Of a stretch of 21,535 nucleotides of DNA, positions 2 to 16,623 are shown piece by piece. Source of the DNA: Gammaproteobacteria bacterium. Lineage in GTDB: Bacteria > Pseudomonadota > Gammaproteobacteria > Halothiobacillales > Halothiobacillaceae. Positions within the stretch are counted from its first letter, which is position 1. The number at the start of each line of letters is the position of its first letter. Position numbers and translations under genes: made by a program. The stretch spans positions 1 through 21,535 of the forward strand of contig JARJMX020000176.1 of the NCBI GenBank assembly GCA_029335925.2, given 5' to 3'. Under the pieces are notes generated by a model, which had not been told where the DNA came from, searched no databases, and saw only the letters and a program-made list of their open reading frames with translations.

Positions 2-652
2 CACAAGCCGAAGTCCAAGATCATCATCCTCGACCCGAAGGACAAATTCTCCAAGCAGGGCCTGTTCATGGAGGCCTGGGAGACCCTGTACGGTGACATG
101 ATCGACTGGGTCAGCCCGGAGCGGGGCGGCGTAGTCACCTCGGTGGATGCTGGCTCGATGACCGTTACCACCAAAGATGGTGACAAGATCAAGGGGGATG
201 TGATCAATGTCATCCCGCCCATGCGGGCCGGTAAGATTGTCACCGCTTCCGGACTTGCCGACGATACGGGCTGGGCACCAGTCAATCAGCGCACCTTTGA
301 GTCCAGCAAAGCCAAGAACGTATATGTGATTGGTGATAGCTGCATCGCAGGCCCCATACCCAAATCGGGCTATGGGGCGAACTCCGAGGCGAAAATTGCC
401 GCAGCCGCCATCGTCAATGCCCTCAATGGTGCCGAGGCGGGCGACCCGAAGTTAGTCAACACCTGCTACAGCTATGTTTCCGCGCAGGACGCGATCTCCG
501 TTGTTGGAGTCTACGAGCTGAGCGCCGAGAACAAGATCGTCGAAGTCAAGGGCTCAGGCGGTGTGTCGGCCAAGGGGGGTAACAACTGGAAGGCTGAAGG
601 CCTATTTGCCAAGGGGTGGTACGAGGGCATCCGCCAGGACACCTGGGGCTGA
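2..652 (+). CDS. fccB: Sulfide dehydrogenase (flavocytochrome c) flavoprotein subunit, C-terminal part
   Basis: This is the 3' part (216 codons) of the FAD subunit of flavocytochrome c sulfide dehydrogenase, which oxidises sulfide in the periplasm and passes electrons to a c-type cytochrome subunit (FccA). The reading frame is open from base 2, so the N-terminus, with any signal peptide and the first FAD-binding motif, lies outside the window. Visible family features are the second FAD-binding segment VYVIGDS (partial residues 108-113), the following PKSGYGANSEAK stretch, and the C-terminal flavin-binding domain containing NTCYSYVSAQDA (153-164). Its cysteine sits where this family carries one half of a redox disulfide; that assignment comes from knowledge of the family. 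A perfect terminator hairpin follows 19 bases after the stop, so this is the last gene of its operon. FccA or related sulfur-oxidation genes would be expected upstream. SoxF is a close alternative name. Confidence 0.9.
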   Translation, partial: HKPKSKIIILDPKDKFSKQGLFMEAWETLYGDMIDWVSPERGGVVTSVDAGSMTVTTKDGDKIKGDVINVIPPMRAGKIVTASGLADDTGWAPVNQRTFESSKAKNVYVIGDSCIAGPIPKSGYGANSEAKIAAAAIVNALNGAEAGDPKLVNTCYSYVSAQDAISVVGVYELSAENKIVEVKGSGGVSAKGGNNWKAEGLFAKGWYEGIRQDTWG

Positions 653-2580: not shown

Positions 2581-3810
2581 TCATGCGCCCGCTTTTTTAG
2601 AAGACATGAGGACGACATGCCCTTGCTCCACCGTCACCTCGACCGGCGTTAAGGCCTCGCCCCGGCAGGGGCCGGCGATACAGCGGCCATCCTCGATGGT
2701 AAACAGCGCGCCATGCACCGCGCACAGGATGTAGCGCTGATCGGCGTCGAGGAACACATCCGGCTGCCAGTTGAGTTCTGCGCCGATGTGCGGGCAACGG
2801 TTGAGGTAGCCCTTCACCGTGTGGCCCCGGCGGACGATGAAAATCGGGCGCATGGCACCGTCGAGTTCGACTTCAAGGCCGCGGCTGCCCGGATCAGGTA
2901 GGCTGGCGAGGGGACAGAGGTATTCGCCCGCAGCCATGGCGGTGGGCTTGAACAGGCCTTCAAGCCCCACTTGCCCCACCTTGCGCCCCGCTAGGCGGCA
3001 AGCATCCTCCACGGCGAGCTCAAGGGCGCGGCCGGAAAGCATGGCGTGGATCAATCCGGCGTTGAAGGTGTCGCCCGCGCCAAGGGTATCGACCACCTCA
3101 GGCGGCGGGAAGGCCGGGCTGTGCAGCAGCGCATCGCCCTGCATCGCCCAGGCCCCCTGGTCGCCCCAGGGCAGAATCAGGATGGCACGCGGCGCCCAGG
3201 CACGCGCCTCGGCCAGGAACGCCTGCGGCTGCTCGAACCCACGGCCGCGGGCGAAGGCGCGCGAAAAAATGATGATGTCGGGATAGTCCCACAACTGCTC
3301 CAACCCATCGCGCTCCTTCTCTACCTCGAGCGAGATCGGCTGATCACGCACCATACTGCGCGCATAGGCGAGCATGGCCGCGAGTTCGTCGCAGTTACGC
3401 GCCTCGAAGTGCAGCCAGTCGAACGTCTCCACGGGGATCTCCATGAAGTCGTCCATGCCGAACTCCGGCAGGTCGCGGTGGTGGATGATGGTGCGTGAGC
3501 CGTTGCGCCGATTGAGGGCGATGTACGAAGTGGGCGTGGCACCGCCCGCCATCCGCCGGGCATACTCCAGACCGATGCCGCGCGCTGTAAGCTCCGCCGT
3601 GATGCGCTGCCCCCCCATATCGCCCGCCAGTACCCCGGCAAAATGGCACTGATGCCCAGCCTGGGCAAGGATACCTAGAGTATTGGCGGTATTTCCCCCC
3701 AGCCGCACAGCCTGCTCCACGGCGCGCACCTCGCTGTCTTCGGCGGGATAGCCATCGACCGTGTTGATGATGTCGAGGGTGGCGATACCGGTGCCAAGGA
3801 TGCGGGCCAT
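2581..3810 (-). CDS. PfkB-family (ketohexokinase-like) kinase fused to a C-terminal Rieske [2Fe-2S] domain
   Basis: One uninterrupted 409-residue frame with two recognisable domains. Residues 1 to about 300 are a PfkB/ribokinase-fold sugar kinase. They carry GGNTANT (38-44), a ketohexokinase-like WLHFEARN (132-139) and the catalytic VVDTLGAGDTFNAGL (239-253), with D247 the expected base. This part would transfer phosphate from ATP to a ketose or similar small substrate. Residues about 312-409 are a compact Rieske ferredoxin-like domain with both cluster-ligand pairs, C339-P-H341 and C363-x2-H366, in NRCPHIGAEL and CAVHGALF. The link at about 285-318 (FKPTAMAAGEYLCPLASLPD) is short. Neither domain lacks a key residue, so both may be active. 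The gene lies 36 bases downstream of the phosphoesterase, in the same direction. The physiological substrate and the electron partner are unknown. Confidence 0.88.
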   Translation of the reverse strand: MARILGTGIATLDIINTVDGYPAEDSEVRAVEQAVRLGGNTANTLGILAQAGHQCHFAGVLAGDMGGQRITAELTARGIGLEYARRMAGGATPTSYIALNRRNGSRTIIHHRDLPEFGMDDFMEIPVETFDWLHFEARNCDELAAMLAYARSMVRDQPISLEVEKERDGLEQLWDYPDIIIFSRAFARGRGFEQPQAFLAEARAWAPRAILILPWGDQGAWAMQGDALLHSPAFPPPEVVDTLGAGDTFNAGLIHAMLSGRALELAVEDACRLAGRKVGQVGLEGLFKPTAMAAGEYLCPLASLPDPGSRGLEVELDGAMRPIFIVRRGHTVKGYLNRCPHIGAELNWQPDVFLDADQRYILCAVHGALFTIEDGRCIAGPCRGEALTPVEVTVEQGHVVLMSSKKAGA

Positions 3811-3846: not shown

Positions 3847-4356
3847 CTAGCCGCGAAAGACGTGGATGTCCACCCTCCACTGCTCCGCCCCGGCGTTCAG
3901 CACTAGGCAAGAGGGCGCGCCGCAGGTGCGGATGCGCCCCGCCGCACCGGGGTTGAGCACCCAAGGCCACGCTTCCTGGTCGATAACCAGCCGATGCGTG
4001 TGGCCATAGACCACGGCCCGGGCATACGGATGGCGCTCGCGCAGACGCGCATGACGCAAGGCGGCAGGCAGGGCGCGATGACCATGCTCGACCGCGAGGA
4101 TGCCTCCGGGCAGATCGATCTCAACCTGCTCCGGCAGCTCGCGCAACCAGCCCTCCGAGCCGCGCGGCCACTGCAAAGGGGTGTCGTTGTTACCGCGTAC
4201 CGCAATCACCCGCCCACTCTTAGGCTGGAGCGCGGCCAGCACACGTGGCGCACCGATATCTCCCGCATGCACGACCAGATCGCAGTCGGCCACGATCTCG
4301 GCAATGTGCTCATTGAGCGTGCCGTGGGTATCCGCCACCAGCGCCACCCGGATCAT
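3847..4356 (-). CDS. YfcE/MJ0936-type metallophosphoesterase
   Basis: A compact 169-residue calcineurin-like phosphoesterase that would hydrolyse phosphodiesters or phosphomonoesters in the cytoplasm using two metal ions. The metal-ligand motifs are complete and in order: D9-T-H11 (ADTHG), GDIG with D33, GNND (55-58), H91 in EHGH, and GHTH (118-121). The length matches the YfcE/MJ0936 subfamily. The ATG is preceded by GGAGG within CGTAGGAGGCGAGG and overlaps the stop of the upstream permease gene by four bases (ATGA), so translation is coupled. It is not a PlcP phospholipase, which is longer. The natural substrate is not known for most of the family. Confidence 0.87.
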   Translation of the reverse strand: MIRVALVADTHGTLNEHIAEIVADCDLVVHAGDIGAPRVLAALQPKSGRVIAVRGNNDTPLQWPRGSEGWLRELPEQVEIDLPGGILAVEHGHRALPAALRHARLRERHPYARAVVYGHTHRLVIDQEAWPWVLNPGAAGRIRTCGAPSCLVLNAGAEQWRVDIHVFRG

Positions 4357-5444
4357 CCTCGCCTCCTACGCGCAAGCCCTGCCAGTGCCAGGAGCACAAG
4401 CACCACCAGCGCCGCCCAGGCCACAGGCGAGGCCGCCTCGGCCTCGCCTGTGGAGGGGATGATGTGCAAGTCAAGCACACCGACCAGCCACTCGGTTAGG
4501 AGGCCAAGCAGCAGGGTGACGGTGGCGAGGGCGACCAGATAGACCGTCAGCAGCCGCCCGCCAAACTCGCGCTTAAGCACGCCAAGCGTACCGAGATTGG
4601 CCGCAGGCCCCGCGAGCAGGAACACCAGCACCGCACCCGGCCCCACGCCGACCGTCAGCAGGGCAGCAGCCACCGGCGTCGCAGCCGTGGCGCAGACGTA
4701 CATGGGCAGACCAAGGACGAACATCAGCAGCATCCCCGGCAACCCCTGCCCCAGACTAGCCAGGGCCAAGGGGGGGGCGAAGGCGGACAGCGCCCCGGCG
4801 ACCAGCAGGGCCATCCCCAGCCAGGGGGCGAGGTCGTCCCACAAGGTAGTCAGGGCGTAGCGCACCCCTTCCATGGTCCGTGCCAGCACGGCACGGTCCC
4901 GGCTGCGGGGGGGTGGGCATCCGCCCGCGCAGGCTGCGGGCGGTGGCGGAGGTGGCATGGAGCATCCCGCGCCGCAGCGGCCCGTGGCGCAAGCCGATCC
5001 CGCAGCAGGTACGGCAGAAGGATGGCCATCATCGTCGCCCATCCGGGAGGCCGCCCACCCCACCGTCACCGCGGAGATCAGCGCCCCCAGCGGCCGCAGT
5101 ACGGCATACACCGGGCCAAGCAGGGCGTAGGTCACAGCCACGGAATCGACCCCGGTTTCGGGGGTGGCGATCATGAAGGCGAGAGTCGGCCCCTTGCCCG
5201 CGCCCTGGCGGCGTAGGCCGAGCGCGGTCGGCAGCACACTGCAAGAACACAGCGGTAGGGGCGCGCCAACCAACGCCGCTCGCACCACAGCCCCAAGGCT
5301 CTCGCCTCCGACCCAACGTACCAGCCACGCCTCGGACAGGAAAGCCTTGAGCAGACCGGCAAGCACCAGCCCCAAGAGCAGCCATGGCGCGGCATCAAGG
5401 GCCAAACCCAGCGTGGCGTGAGCAAAGGCGGGGAGCCATTCCAT
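4353..5444 (-). CDS. SO_0444-family Cu/Zn efflux permease (DUF318/ArsP-like)
   Basis: A 363-residue multi-pass inner-membrane permease. The signature CSCSVLP (66-72) at the start of the second transmembrane bundle, TPETGVDSV (94-102), and in the second half GLPMYVCATAATPVAAAL are typical of SO_0444-type heavy-metal efflux transporters of the DUF318 family. About eight hydrophobic segments are visible. The central cytoplasmic loop (about 140-180) is rich in cysteine and proline: C152, C157, C161, C172 and C176 around a run of six prolines, a plausible metal-sensing or docking loop. A run of eight G (4770-4777, + strand) is present in the gene but does not break the frame. It starts 3 bases after the nitroreductase stop and overlaps the phosphoesterase start. 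The exported metal cannot be told from sequence. Confidence 0.85.
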   Translation of the reverse strand: MEWLPAFAHATLGLALDAAPWLLLGLVLAGLLKAFLSEAWLVRWVGGESLGAVVRAALVGAPLPLCSCSVLPTALGLRRQGAGKGPTLAFMIATPETGVDSVAVTYALLGPVYAVLRPLGALISAVTVGWAASRMGDDDGHPSAVPAAGSACATGRCGAGCSMPPPPPPAACAGGCPPPRSRDRAVLARTMEGVRYALTTLWDDLAPWLGMALLVAGALSAFAPPLALASLGQGLPGMLLMFVLGLPMYVCATAATPVAAALLTVGVGPGAVLVFLLAGPAANLGTLGVLKREFGGRLLTVYLVALATVTLLLGLLTEWLVGVLDLHIIPSTGEAEAASPVAWAALVVLVLLALAGLARRRRG

Positions 5445-5447
5445 CCC

Positions 5448-6055
5448 TTAGCTCATCCTCCAAGACCGACCGAAGCCACCCGCGAAGAAAGTATCACCCA
5501 ACGGGCGACGACGGCGTGGGGCGATCTCGTTTTCGTAAAAAGAGCCTTCCAGCTGCTCCGCCCGCCCCGGGTAACCGACGGCAATCATCGCCATTGGCTG
5601 ATAGCGCTCAGGCACGTTGAAGGCGACACGCACGGCCTCCACATCGAAACCGCCCATCTGGTGGGCGATGAGCCCCTGATGCACGGCTTCAAGACACAGA
5701 TTCTCGCTCGCTGCCCCCGTGTCATACCCCCCCCCCAAGGGTTAGGCTGGTCATGATGCGTAAACACGGTATCAGCAAGAACAATCAGAAGTACAGGCAC
5801 GGCCTTGCACCAGGCCTGGTTACCTGGGGCCAGCACGGCAAACGCCCGTTGCCAGGCCGCCTCATCCCGCGCCCGGTCGCAGACGATATAGCGCCAAGGC
5901 TCATCCCCCCAGCAGGACGGGGCCCAGCGCGCCGCCTCGAACAGGGCAGCCAGCTTCTCGGGCTCGACATGACGTGCAGTATCGAAGGCGCGCGGGCTCC
6001 AAAGCGCTGCGATTTCCGCCAAGATAGGCACAGATGTTTCAGCCAACTTACTCAT
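5448..6055 (-). pseudogene. Nitroreductase-family protein, frameshifted in a G10 tract
   Basis: FMN-dependent nitroreductase-like oxidoreductase of about 200 residues in two frames. Residues 1-109 (WSPRAFD, AARWAPSCWGDEPWRYIV, then PNPWGG) read from the ATG at 6055. The rest (YDTGAASENLCLEAVHQGLIAHQMGGFD to the TAA at 5448) reads in another frame. The shift falls exactly in ten consecutive G on the coding strand (5736-5727). Eight or eleven G would restore one frame; eight gives W-G-G-Y-D, the spacing I expect from homologues. As written, the frame runs on to about 5585 with unrelated sequence. Either the gene is inactivated or phase-variable, or the tract length is a sequencing error. A run of eight G two bases before the ATG (6065-6058) provides the ribosome-binding site. 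The start overlaps the DUF2238 stop by eight bases. Confidence 0.85.
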
Positions 6056-12045: not shown

Positions 12046-12606
12046 TCATCCAACCGCCGCCTGCGCCAGCAAGGCCTCCACCGCCTGCGCCAAGTCATCG
12101 AACACCGACGTATCCGCAGGCAAGCCCCCCTTGGCCAAGGTCCGCGCACCTTTGCCGGTGCGCACCAATATCGGCCGCGCTCCTACCGCAACGGCGGCCT
12201 CCAGGTCGCGCAGACTGTCGCCAATCACCGGCACCCCGATAAGGCTACAGCCAAAGTGCTCCGCAATCTCTTCATACATACCGGGCAAGGGCTTGCGGCA
12301 GCGGCAGGTCGAGCCTGGCCCGTGCGGACACCAGGTGATGTAGTCAATCGCCGCGCCATGCTCCGCCAGCAGGGCGGCCAGCTTGTCGTGCATCGCGTTC
12401 AAGGCGGCTTCGTCGAACAGGCCACGCGCAATGCCTGACTGGTTGGTGGCGATACCGACCGTCCAGCCGGCCTGCTTAAGGCGCGCGATGGCCTCGATGC
12501 TGCCCGGCAGCGGCACCCACTCCTTGGGTGACTTGATGAAATCGTCGGAGTCCTCGTTGATCACCCCGTCGCGATCGAGGATGACCAGCTTCCCGCAGTC
12601 GGTCAT
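12046..12606 (-). CDS. gmhB: D-glycero-beta-D-manno-heptose 1,7-bisphosphate 7-phosphatase
   Basis: A 186-residue HAD-superfamily phosphatase that removes the 7-phosphate from heptose 1,7-bisphosphate in the cytoplasm, the third step of ADP-heptose synthesis. The catalytic DxD is D11-R-D13 (ILDRDGVIN). [10 protein letters not shown] (53-62) is HAD motif II. The structural zinc site C93-H95-C101-C103 ([11 protein letters not shown]) marks the GmhB/HisB-N type, and D130 lies in [12 protein letters not shown]. The length is normal (E. coli 191). The ATG overlaps the gmhA stop by four bases (ATGA), so the pair is coupled. Confidence 0.95.
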
Positions 12607-13175
12607 GCCCCATCCTCCCGGAAGGCTTCATCGATCATCGCGCACCAGATATGGCCGATCAGGATGTGGCATTCCTGAATCCGCGGTGTGTCATAGGAGG
12701 GCACAATCAGGACGTAATCCACCAAGTCCTTAAGCGCCCCACCACTGCCGCCGAGCAGGCCGATGGTGGTCACGCCCAGCTTGCGCGCCATCTTCACCGC
12801 CTCAATCACATTCCGACTGTTGCCCGAGGTGGAAATCCCAATCAGAACGTCGCCCTTGCGCGCCAGCGCCTCGACCTGACGGGCAAAGACGTGATCGAAG
12901 CCGAAGTCGTTGCCAATCGAAGTCAGCGCCGAGGAATCGGTGGTCAGGGCGATGGCGGGCAGGCCGCGCCGCACATGGGCGAAGCGCCCGACCAATTCGG
13001 CCGCGACGTGCTGCGCATCCGCCGCGCTGCCGCCGTTGCCGCAGAGCAGAACCTTGCCGCCTGCGCGCAAGGCGGTAAGCAACCGCTGGCCGATGGCGTC
13101 CATAGTCGGAGCAAGCCCGCGCAGGGCGCTCACAGCCTGAAGATGATGGTCAATCTGTTGAATGATAAAAGACAC
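12603..13175 (-). CDS. gmhA: Sedoheptulose 7-phosphate isomerase
   Basis: A 190-residue SIS-domain isomerase that converts sedoheptulose 7-phosphate to D-glycero-D-manno-heptose 7-phosphate, the first committed step of LPS heptose synthesis. [12 protein letters not shown] (45-56) and [14 protein letters not shown] (113-126) are the phosphate-binding loops. H56, E60, Q167 and H175 match the metal ligands of the E. coli enzyme with a constant offset of five. DiaA also has a SIS fold, but the ligands and the neighbouring gmhB, hldE and hldD favour GmhA. The start is GTG at 13175, preceded by AGGG at a 7-base distance. It is divergent from hldE across 75 bases. Confidence 0.94.
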
Positions 13176-13250
13176 GGGCGCACCCTAAGGAAGCAAATTC
13201 ACTTAGAATGCGGGCAGCTTAATGCAGAACCACCCGTACACGATCCCATC
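13176..13250. promoter_or_regulatory. Divergent intergenic region between gmhA and hldE
   Basis: A 75-base region that must hold, or lie close to, the promoters of both heptose transcription units. TAGAAT at 13204-13209 is a five-of-six -10 match on the + strand, but no acceptable -35 lies 16-18 bases upstream, and no clear minus-strand promoter was found. The region is low in GC compared with its surroundings. Confidence 0.35.
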
Positions 13251-14678
13251 ATGCTCCTTGACCTGCCCGATTTTTCCCGAGCCCATGTGCTTGTGGCCGG
13301 CGATGTCATGCTCGACCGCTACTGGCATGGTGCCACCTCGCGCATCTCGCCCGAGGCCCCTGTGCCCGTGGTTAAGGTAGAGGGCGACGAGCTGCGCGTC
13401 GGCGGGGCGGGCAACGTCGCACTGAATGTCACCGCGCTAGGTGCTGGGGCCACCCTGGCGGCCCTGGTGGGCAACGATACCGAGGCCAATACCCTACGCG
13501 AACGGCTGAAGACGGGCCGGGTCGCCTGCCGCCTGCTGACCGTGCCCGGCAGTCGCACCCTCACCAAGCTGCGCATCATCAGCCGCCATCAGCAGCTCAT
13601 CCGCCTCGACTTCGAGGACAACTTCCCCGCCGAATCCGCCGCCGCCATGCCGGAGGTGGTACAAAGCGCACTGGCGGGCGCGGGGGCACTGGTGCTCTCC
13701 GACTACGCCAAGGGTACGCTTAAACATGCACAAGCGATGATCCAAGCGGCGCGCGCGGCCGGGGTGCCGGTGGTGGTCGACCCCAAGGGCACGGACTTCG
13801 AACGCTACCGCGGCGCGACCGTGCTCACCCCCAATCTGGCCGAATTCGAAGCCGTGGTCGGCCCCTGCATGGATGAGGCCACCCTGGTCGCGCGCGGCGA
13901 GGCGCTGTGCGACCAGCTCGAGCTCACGGCCCTGCTCATCACCCGCAGTGAGCGCGGCATGACCCTGCTTGTTACCGGGCAACCGGCCCTGCACCTGCCC
14001 GCCCGCGCCCGCGAGGTGTTCGATGTGACCGGTGCAGGCGACACCGTGGTCGCCGTGCTGGCCGCCGGACTCGCCGCCGGTATGCGCCTGCCCGAGGCCA
14101 CTGCGCTGGCCAACCTTGCCGCAGGGGTGGTGGTCGGCAAGCTTGGCACGGCCACCGTGTCGCTCCATGAACTGACCGAGGCTATGCAGGGGCACACCTC
14201 GCTACCGACCGGGCCGATGGATGAAGACCGCCTGCTGGAGATCCTCGCCCGGGCGCGGGCGGCGGGCGAGCGCATCGTCATGACCAATGGTTGCTTCGAC
14301 ATCCTCCACCCCTGCCATGTCACCTACCTGCACCAGGCCCGCGCCCTCGGCGATCGCCTGATCGTGGCCGTCAACGACGACGACTCCGTGCGTCGGCTCA
14401 AGGGGCCCTCACGCCCGGTCAACGGACTCAAGACACGTATGCTCATGCTGGCGGCGTTGTCCTCCGTGGACTGGGTGGTACCCTTTAGCGAAGACACCCC
14501 CGAGCGCCTGATCTGCCGCCTTAAGCCCGATGTGCTGGTCAAGGGCGGCGACTATCGGCCCGAGGACATTGCAGGGGGCCGATGCGTCATCGACTATGGC
14601 GGCGAGGTGAAGGTTTTGGGGTTTGTTGAAGGGTATTCCACCTCGGGACTCATCGCCCGTATCCAGGAGACGCCATGA
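13251..14678 (+). CDS. hldE: Bifunctional heptose 7-phosphate kinase / heptose 1-phosphate adenylyltransferase
   Basis: A 475-residue fusion enzyme (E. coli 477) catalysing steps two and four of ADP-heptose synthesis. Residues 1 to about 315 are a ribokinase-type kinase with [10 protein letters not shown] (51-60) and [12 protein letters not shown] (259-270, D264 the expected base). Residues about 325-475 are a nucleotidyltransferase with [20 protein letters not shown] (344-363) and [13 protein letters not shown] (431-443). The adenylyltransferase HxGH motif reads H353-P-C-H356, so the glycine is replaced by cysteine (codon TGC; GGC would differ by one base). I chose the ATG at 13251 because the kinase begins directly after it. 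The frame is open about 200 codons further upstream, but only antisense to gmhA. It overlaps hldD by four bases (ATGA). Confidence 0.95.
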
Positions 14679-15619
14679 TCATCGTCACCGGCGGTGCCGG
14701 CTTTATCGGCAGCAACATCGTACAGGGGCTTAACGCCCGTGGCATCACCGACATCCTGGTGGTGGACAACCTCAAGGATGGGCGCAAATGCATCAATCTG
14801 GCCGATGCAAACTTCCGCGACTATCTGGACAAGGACGACTTCCTCGCTCTGATCCAGCAGGGGTACAACTTCGGTCCGGTCGAGGCCGTGCTGCACCAAG
14901 GTGCCTGCTCCACCACCACCGAGTGGAACGGGCGCTTTATGATGGCCACCAACTACGACTACTCCAAAGCCCTGCTGCATTGGTGTCTCAAACACCGTAT
15001 CCCCTTCCTCTATGCCTCCTCGGCCTCCGTCTATGGGGCAGGGCCGGTGTTCACAGAAGGACGCGAGCATGAACGCCCGCTGAACGTGTACGCCTTCTCT
15101 AAGTTTCAGTTCGACCAGTACGTGCGCGCGCTGGGGCCGCTGCATAGTCCGGTGGTGGGGCTACGCTATTTCAATGTTTACGGCCCGCGCGAGCAGCACA
15201 AGAAGGACATGGCCAGCGTCGTCTTCCATTTCCACCGCCAACTTTTGGAGAGTGGCAAAGTCCGTCTGTTTGAGGGCTCGGACGGCTTCGGCCCCGGCGA
15301 ACAGCGGCGCGACTTCATCCATGTGGACGACGTGGTGGCCGTCAACCTATGGCTGATGGACCACCCTGAGGTCCGCGGCATCTTCAACCTCGGCACAGGC
15401 CGGGCCCAGAGCTTCAATGACGTCGCCCACGCCGTCATTGCCTTCCATGGTCGCGGCGAGATCGAATACATCCCCTTCCCCGAACACCTCAAGGGCGCCT
15501 ATCAGAGCTTCACCCAGGCCGATATGCGCGCTCTGCGCGCTGCAGGATACACCGCCCCCTTCTTGAGCGTGGAAGAGGGTGTGCCGCGCTATCTTGCCTG
15601 GCTGAGCCGACAAGGATGA
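14675..15619 (+). CDS. hldD: ADP-L-glycero-D-manno-heptose 6-epimerase
   Basis: A 314-residue short-chain dehydrogenase-type epimerase (E. coli 310) that inverts C6 of ADP-D-glycero-D-manno-heptose, producing the donor used by WaaC and Waa[11 protein letters not shown] (5-14) is the NADP-binding Rossmann loop. [13 protein letters not shown] (74-86) and the catalytic S116, Y139 and K143 ([14 protein letters not shown]) are intact and almost in E. coli register. [14 protein letters not shown] (163-176) is diagnostic of HldD. The start overlaps the hldE stop (ATGA) and the stop overlaps the waaF start in the same way, so all three are translated as one unit. Confidence 0.96.
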
Positions 15620-16623
15620 GCGCACCCCGCATCCTGATCGTCGGCCCCGCCTGGGTGGGCGATATGGTCATGGCCCACAGCCTGATCCAGACCCTGCTGC
15701 AACGCCATTCCGGCGCAGTGATCGACGTGCTGGCTCCCCGCTGGTCGCTCCCCCTCCTAGCCCGCATGCCCGGGGTGCATGAGGGTATCGAAATGCCCCT
15801 CGGCCACGGGCAGATCGGCCTTGCCACCCGCTGGCGTCTGGGGCGCCGCCTGCGCGGCCGCTACACTCAGGCCATCATTTTGCCAGGATCGCTGAAGTCC
15901 GCCATCGTACCTTTCTTCGCCGGCATTCCTCAGCGCACCGGCTTTCGCGGTGAATATCGCTATGGTCTGATCAATGACATGCGCTCCCTGGACAAGGCCC
16001 GCCTGCCCATGACCGTGCAGCGCTTTACGGCCTTGGGTCTGCCTGCGCATGCCGTCATGCCTCCCCCCTATCCCCGGCCGCGCCTGACGGTGGACCCTGC
16101 GAACCAGGCGCGCCTGCTACGTGAACTGGCGCTGGATACCAGCCTACCGGTGATCGCCATGATGCCGGGGGCCGAATACGGCCCGGCCAAGCAATGGCCC
16201 CTGTCCCACTTTGCTGCACTGGCGCGCCACCTCGTGGCATCCGGGCGGCAGGTCTGGATCCTAGGCTCGGCCAAGGACCGCGCGGCAGGCGAGACGATCT
16301 CCAGCCAAGCAGGCGCAGGCGTGCTCAATCTCTGCGGGCAGACGCGGCTGGAGGATGCCGTGGACCTGCTCGCCCTCGCCCAAGCGGCAGTGACCAATGA
16401 CTCCGGCCTCATGCACGTCGCCGCCGCCTTGGATGTACCCACCATCGCCCTGTTTGGCTCCTCCTCCCCGGCCCATACTCCCCCGCTCTCTGCACGCGCA
16501 AAGGTGCTGTATTTGGGACTGGGGTGCTCGCCGTGCTTCAAGCGTGTTTGTCCGCTGGGGCATACGCGCTGTCTCTTTGAGATCCACCCCAGCCAGGTCA
16601 TGGAGGCCATTCAAGACCTCTGA
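15616..16623 (+). CDS. waaF: ADP-heptose:LPS heptosyltransferase II
   Basis: A 335-residue GT9 glycosyltransferase adding the second heptose to the LPS inner core on the cytoplasmic face of the inner membrane. The N-terminus [19 protein letters not shown] is the WaaF hallmark, as are [14 protein letters not shown] and the donor-site [13 protein letters not shown] (about residues 259-271) followed by [16 protein letters not shown] cysteine cluster near the C-terminus ([17 protein letters not shown]) is typical of this protein. The start overlaps the hldD stop by four bases (ATGA), and waaL starts 2 bases after its stop. No anomaly was seen. Confidence 0.94.

Follow-up and report, generated by a model that had tools for sequence, protein, structure and literature searches.

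The window, the whole 21,535-nucleotide stretch of DNA that was analysed, carries on its minus strand an open frame of 409 codons with an ATG start, encoding a putative ketohexokinase-type sugar kinase joined to a C-terminal Rieske iron-sulfur domain (Table 1). The original prediction of one frame holding both domains is confirmed, the strand having been left unstated there; stops are present when the plus strand is read in the same phase. Both domains score above their curated Pfam cut-offs: PfkB covers residues 3-283 with 112.8 bits (cut-off 25.8; E 2.6e-32), and Rieske covers residues 320-385 with 30.5 bits (cut-off 20.3; E 3.4e-7). The predicted positions of the GAGD motif and of both ligand pairs are exact, the former in the protein's own sequence, in the alignment to human ketohexokinase (KHK) and in close homologues, and the latter likewise the same in close homologues. 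The source genome (G000; 1.64 Mb, 92.5% complete) has a single match to the fusion protein.

Table 1. Coordinates of the kinase-Rieske gene, its domains and motifs, and genes that lie beside it or beside its relatives.
Feature	Position	Strand	Evidence
Whole gene, 409 aa, putative ketohexokinase-type kinase with Rieske domain	2581..3810	-	ORF, Pfam, genome match
Kinase domain, aligned to human ketohexokinase over residues 3-286	2953..3804	-	E 1.2e-58, Pfam
GAGD motif, residues 244-247, with D247 as the predicted base (equivalent to D258 in human KHK)	3070..3081	-	Sequence, KHK alignment, PMC2651755 (available text)
Rieske domain, about residues 295-401	2608..2928	-	Pfam, locus comparison
First ligand pair C339/H341 (CPH)	2788..2796	-	Sequence, Rieske alignment
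Second ligand pair C363/H366 (CxxH)	2713..2724	-	Sequence, Rieske alignment
Extra cysteine pair C377/C382 (DGxCxxGPC)	2665..2682	-	Kept in all checked members of this Rieske family
Upstream same-strand gene for a YfcE-family phosphodiesterase	3847..4356	-	Neighbour clustering, profile scan
cNMP-binding and rhodanese-domain protein before the kinase or the kinase-Rieske pair	L011, L033, L034, L040, L044, L050, L052, L053, L055, L059	same strand	Clustering; Pfam on two

The YfcE-family gene upstream belongs to a cluster present in four of the 64 loci compared (the window, L002, L005 and L009). A terminator-like stem (3880-3853) lies within the end of this gene, before the kinase start, making co-transcription of the two doubtful; the terminator scan found four such elements against 2.3 by chance, and a promoter scan found none. 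Overlapping the YfcE gene by four bases is a gene for an SO_0444-family Cu/Zn efflux transporter (4353-5444, minus strand) that scores over its NCBIfam cut-off. A nitroreductase-family gene (5448-6055, minus strand) is split into overlapping frames, with the N-terminal part at 5585-6055 and the C-terminal part at 5448-5738, indicating that the gene is broken or the assembly is in error. Near the window start, 68-652 (plus strand) encodes the C-terminal portion of a flavoprotein resembling flavocytochrome c sulfide dehydrogenase, which fits a sulfur-oxidizing host. ADP-heptose and lipopolysaccharide core genes encoding GmhA, HldE, HldD and heptosyltransferase II occupy 12046-16623; with HldE the window holds a further PfkB-type kinase, and the HAD phosphatase adjoining GmhA was taken as GmhB.

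The fusion is neither chance nor an assembly joint, because 106 of the best 120 of 2918 homologues are two-domain proteins (three of them short pieces), all 106 with the four Rieske ligands and the additional CX4C cysteine pair (105 identified by pattern, P0062 by eye); the remaining 14 are kinase alone. Fusions down to about 42% identity keep the four ligands and the Asp of the GAGD motif, which reads AAGD in some. The frame has no stop between the domains; such a stop was one of the two outcomes named beforehand as telling against the prediction, and the other, a fusion limited to one genome, is contradicted by Guyparkeria, Halothiobacillus and another Halothiobacillaceae MAG, which are likewise fused. 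When the Rieske half alone was used as the query, the 15 proteins found from 107 candidates were all the same fusion. Named fusion hosts also include Hydrogenovibrio, Thiomicrospira and Thiomicrorhabdus; the kinase and Rieske genes lie side by side in Methylophaga, Sedimenticola and Candidatus Thiodiazotropha, and the kinase is found without a family Rieske gene in the fetched flanks in Thioalkalivibrio versutus, Thiothrix fructosivorans and Thiorhodococcus drewsii. In one Thiomicrorhabdus MAG (L041, 6956-8201) the kinase is split over two frames.

Both a profile score above the curated cut-off and the GAGD motif place the kinase half in the PfkB/ribokinase superfamily. The closest solved relatives are chains of human ketohexokinase (202 bits over residues 3-286, with 111 of 284 aligned residues identical), followed by sulfofructose kinase as the next different solved protein at 54.7 bits. 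According to the available text of PMC2651755, Asp15, Gly41, Asn42, Asn45 and Asp258 of KHK hydrogen-bond fructose, Glu139 contacts it via water, and Asp258 is the likely catalytic base; the available text of PMC11332825 describes KHK-A as inactive with alanine at D15, N42 or N45, and R141 and K174 as important. The KHK residues D15, G41, N42, N45, E139, R141, K174 and D258 correspond to D13, G39, N40, N43, E136, R138, K165 and D247 of the present protein, all eight being invariant across the 38 rows of alignment A1. Since human KHK is the closest solved relative and the fructose contacts given in that text are conserved, the kinase half is by sequence of the ketohexokinase type; the kinase class originally proposed, PfkB/ketohexokinase-like, holds and is narrowed accordingly. 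None of the 25 NCBIfam models listed (28 matched) reaches its cut-off, the best scoring 65.6 bits against 330. D25 (D27 of KHK), at a position we take to lie inside the pocket, and E136 are kept. R112, which does not vary among the bacterial sequences aligned, stands opposite a Thr of human KHK, in a placement that is unsure because an alignment gap adjoins it.

The Rieske half presents a CxH and a CxxH motif, with two Cys and two His as ligands. These four ligands and the CX4C pair are found in 100 of 100 Rieske domains taken from the loci (85 different), 30 of which are labelled as having no neighbouring kinase; the C377/C382 pair is kept with or without a kinase neighbour. Among solved structures, the soluble ferredoxins of ring-hydroxylating dioxygenase and toluene monooxygenase systems come closest, with a b6f-type subunit scoring close behind. 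Rieske proteins of the bc1 type carry extra cysteines inside the ligand motifs; the present domain has none there and instead has CX4C after the second motif, where C382, by its position, presumably falls in the Pro loop of other Rieske proteins. Scores against the model of the nitrite reductase small subunit NirD (TIGR02378; 17.2 bits against 74.65) and the HcaC-type dioxygenase ferredoxin equivalogs (16.6 against 150 and 15.1 against 113) fall below the cut-offs. No oxygenase gene was found beside the Rieske gene among the window neighbours scanned or, elsewhere, among the neighbour-cluster representatives looked at.

An even draw of 369 genomes from the class was surveyed for the kinase (E <= 1e-40) and the Rieske family (E <= 1e-20), giving 101 genomes with the kinase, 137 with the Rieske family and 59 with both. 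The two genes are linked in 38 of these 59 (9 fused, 29 adjacent) and apart in 21; the linked genomes span 24 families and the fused ones four. In 42 of the 101 kinase genomes the Rieske family has no match, and the Rieske family occurs without the kinase in 78 genomes, which together with the 21 genomes that hold the two apart indicates that neither partner needs the other. Among 42 separate pairs, 35 have an identifiable Met start; in 34 of them the spacing from the kinase stop is between -8 and +26 nt, the exception being G245, an adjacent pair in reverse order. The statement that the two domains are normally separate proteins stands, with the qualification that the separate genes are often immediate neighbours. 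Some genomes are represented twice in the locus comparison, the Rieske tree and the gene-distance set, as a named locus and a G handle or as two loci. In a draw of 200 genomes from the phylum, only the gene's own genome and G435 (29% identity, distant) were recovered.

The kinase tree, built from 89 loci (25 fused, 24 adjacent, 40 alone) after leaving out rows below 300 bits (L041, in two frames; L060 and L062, at contig ends; and the distant PfkB loci L065-L079), requires at least four changes of the fused state, three of them forced by well-supported branches. A joint kinase-Rieske tree of 59 pairs requires three to four, and none of 200 bootstrap trees has a single change. The AU test does not reject a single fused clade (p 0.26 and 0.139), and independent fusions are for this reason not claimed as proof of coupling; on the kinase tree, holding the two large fused groups together improves on the score of the quick tree by 32.6 log units. 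Of the groupings around the core, only the core plus L084 is rejected (p 0.03), with p 0.19 for the core plus L008 and p 0.37 for the core alone. The Rieske tree has few columns, and its 100 rows come down to 85 distinct sequences; linked and unlinked rows are intermingled in it, and L062 is labelled there as lacking the kinase only because its kinase is cut off.

After the Rieske gene, the gene found most often beside the kinase on the same strand encodes a large protein with cNMP-binding and rhodanese domains and lies upstream of the kinase in 10 of the 64 loci (Table 1); in L059 it also has an FGE-sulfatase domain. The same protein precedes the Rieske gene alone in L142, L149, L163 and L170, a pattern that would fit a common locus from which either partner can drop out. 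This neighbour hints at a regulated locus in some lineages and is absent from the window. The other neighbours of the 64 loci looked like local synteny, and a conserved metabolic operon was rejected. The contexts of the Rieske gene were sampled in 61 hand-picked, non-random loci (L138-L198), comprising 56 of the 78 genomes with Rieske and no kinase, four of the 21 in which the genes are apart (G019, G036, G285 and G318) and G435. The direct neighbours in these 61 loci include SnoaL/NTF2-like proteins, AmpG-like transporters and SppA-like S49 peptidases (six each), HAD phosphatases and carA-like genes (five each) and the cNMP-rhodanese protein (four), the HAD, S49, SnoaL and cNMP-rhodanese kinds having been checked by Pfam on related loci and the other kinds named by eye. 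The HAD and S49 neighbours correspond to a gene order of HAD, Rieske and SppA. In L158 (G435; 1309-2652) the gene immediately before the family Rieske gene encodes another PfkB-type kinase, which scores 63 bits against the kinase model, and downstream lies a gene identified by eye as DksA-like, forming a second Rieske-PfkB neighbourhood; the other 60 loci have no match to the kinase model.

In the class draw, RuBisCO (PF00016) is matched in 93 of 101 kinase genomes versus 83 of 268 others (Fisher p 4e-28). Counted by family, with the codes f1-f182 taken as the whole draw and kinship handled at this level, 51 of 54 families with the kinase also have RuBisCO, versus 35 of 128, and one of the other three has the key enzyme of the RuMP cycle. 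The animal-type ketohexokinase, which to our knowledge has no place in textbook C1 metabolism, thus unexpectedly tracks RuBisCO. The Rieske family is far less tied to it (85 of 137 versus 91 of 232), and within the RuBisCO genomes it occurs in 52 of 93 with the kinase versus 33 of 83 without (p 0.036), an association so weak that co-occurrence of kinase and Rieske says little and adjacency is the informative signal. The source genome has one RuBisCO and one PRK-family match. Among the eight kinase genomes without RuBisCO, hexulose-6-phosphate synthase is over its cut-off in three (family f3), and G002 and G160 of this family group with Methylophaga loci in the kinase and joint trees; PF00485 is matched in five of the eight (G002, G033, G048, G285 and G360), which is weak evidence, the model also matching in E. 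coli. G210 has a match to neither hexulose-6-phosphate synthase nor PF00485.

The source and fate of a fructose substrate were also considered. Sucrose-phosphatase (PF05116) is matched in 63 of 101 kinase genomes versus 47 of 268 others, with an odds ratio of 3.2 inside the RuBisCO genomes; since G000 has no match, and 38 of the 101 kinase genomes have none, sucrose can explain the supply of fructose at most in part. Were the kinase to make fructose-1-phosphate, its hosts would be expected to carry either 1-phosphofructokinase or a class I aldolase. In 30 of the 38 linked genomes, searched for FruK and class I aldolases, three gave a strong FruK match (>200 bits, though always below the curated cut-off) and ten a class I aldolase, and 18 of the 30, G000 included, have neither.

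Alongside the observed domains, conserved residues, gene linkage and fusion, and co-occurrence with RuBisCO, we propose, with a probability of roughly 0.35, that the protein is a ketose 1-kinase returning free ketoses to the phosphate pool of a C1 cycle under the control of its Rieske cluster. Judging from the two families, the N-terminal half would most likely transfer the ATP gamma-phosphate to the C1 hydroxyl of an uncharged ketose with D247 as base, candidate ketoses being fructose or the related xylulose, ribulose and sedoheptulose, and the C-terminal half, a ferredoxin-type Rieske domain, would most likely bind a [2Fe-2S] cluster. The two genes were most likely neighbours at first, transcribed together, and may have become one chain in some lineages. 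Most hosts carry a C1 cycle that runs through pentose phosphates, either the Calvin cycle or, in Methylophaga-type genomes, RuMP; there the kinase could salvage free ketoses lost from the cycle or made during sugar storage, and the redox state of the cluster could gate the kinase, so that ATP would be spent in this way only when electrons are plentiful. Such gating would be the best reading of the pair. In favour of the proposal stand the KHK score with the conserved fructose contacts, the invariant Rieske ligands, the linkage and tight spacing of the two genes, and the tie to RuBisCO, with hexulose-phosphate synthase in three of the eight exceptions. Counting against a gated ketose kinase are the 42 kinase-only, 21 apart and 78 Rieske-only genomes and, should fructose-1-phosphate be the product, the 18 of 30 linked genomes in which its usual routes were not found. 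No Calvin- or RuMP-like genes were found among the neighbour-cluster representatives looked at or the window neighbours scanned. The three functions first suggested for the architecture, namely redox control of the kinase, electron delivery to a linked reaction and a coupled step on a phosphosugar, are all weakened by the one-partner genomes, and each could draw on the recurrence of the pair and the conservation of the ligands.

The same one-partner genomes, and the 21 with both genes apart, favour a neutral operon fusion, in which a lost stop joined two neighbours whose domains work separately and the Rieske domain serves as a soluble, kinase-independent electron carrier. The many other gene contexts of the stand-alone Rieske in the 61 loci are consistent with this explanation, as is the AU result that the fused genes may share one origin. 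We regard a neutral fusion as only slightly less likely than the gated kinase; against it, the kinase is the commonest Rieske partner seen (38 of 137 Rieske genomes), the linkage extends across 24 families, and the most divergent fusions retain both the ligands and the catalytic Asp. A Rieske domain that gives or accepts electrons in a step on the same sugar, and that keeps a reductase or oxygenase partner making or using the ketose beside the kinase, would agree with the ferredoxins of dioxygenases and of toluene monooxygenase as nearest solved relatives. This appears improbable, as the sole oxidoreductase among the neighbour-cluster representatives looked at, a check by representative rather than by single neighbour that would miss a partner encoded elsewhere, is an FAD enzyme of the DAO type, encoded next to the kinase in four related loci (L026, L030, L031 and L047), which have no family Rieske gene in the fetched flank.

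The remaining explanation concerns the substrate: the kinase might act on a phosphorylated C1-cycle sugar, for example fructose-6-phosphate, and yield a bisphosphate, with R112 near the pocket end perhaps holding the distal phosphate. The tie to RuBisCO and RuMP and the difficulty of using fructose-1-phosphate in 18 of the 30 linked genomes speak for it, as does the bacterial invariance of R112 opposite the human Thr, to the extent that its uncertain placement allows. The kept acidic residues E136 and D25 would not favour a phosphate, and G000 has its own PRK-family match; we consider a phosphorylated substrate unlikely. A bolder form of the gated ketose kinase, which we consider unlikely as it stands, is that a Rieske redox switch in a sugar kinase might couple electron supply to the Calvin/RuMP sugar-phosphate pool of C1-assimilating gammaproteobacteria, perhaps with the participation of the invariant CX4C pair.

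The domain pair is visible in precomputed Pfam lists. A search of the open-access literature found no description of a ketohexokinase-Rieske, PfkB-Rieske or other sugar kinase-Rieske protein, in agreement with the original remark that no described function was known to its author for this architecture. Nothing was found in the open-access literature on ketohexokinase in Calvin-cycle autotrophs or on fructose-1-phosphate in Thiomicrospira; the open-access papers that combine ketohexokinase with Gammaproteobacteria, methylotrophs or sulfur oxidation deal, as far as their available text goes, with fructose and liver disease, glioblastoma, a kinase survey and biotechnology. With the recurrent union of kinase and Rieske domain, the regulation of a sugar kinase by an iron-sulfur cluster becomes directly testable, and since hosts with strain names exist (Guyparkeria, Hydrogenovibrio, Thiomicrorhabdus and Methylophaga), knockout and assay should be practical.

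Among known systems, the ketohexokinase of animals (EC 2.7.1.3; PfkB/ribokinase superfamily) resembles the kinase half in its 39% identity over 284 residues and in the conserved fructose contacts and catalytic Asp given in the available KHK text, whereas the bacterial protein differs in its C-terminal Rieske domain and in hosts that mostly have RuBisCO and in which the usual fructose-1-phosphate routes were often not found. The other prokaryotic PfkB kinases, including ribokinase, ribose-1-phosphate kinase, sulfofructose kinase and FruK, share the PfkB profile and GAGD but give the far weaker scores noted above. The ferredoxin-type Rieske proteins CarAc, T4MOC and BphF (PF00355) are alike in size, in the CxH...CxxH ligands and in having no membrane anchor seen in their sequences, and differ in that the fusion-family Rieske is tied to a kinase; relative to 3gce, the loop between the ligand pairs is three residues longer in the fusion family, and 3gce has only the second Cys of the CX4C pair, both being present in every fusion-family member checked. 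The proposed Rieske switch would be a counterpart to the thioredoxin control of the plant Calvin cycle, with a cluster in place of the dithiol.
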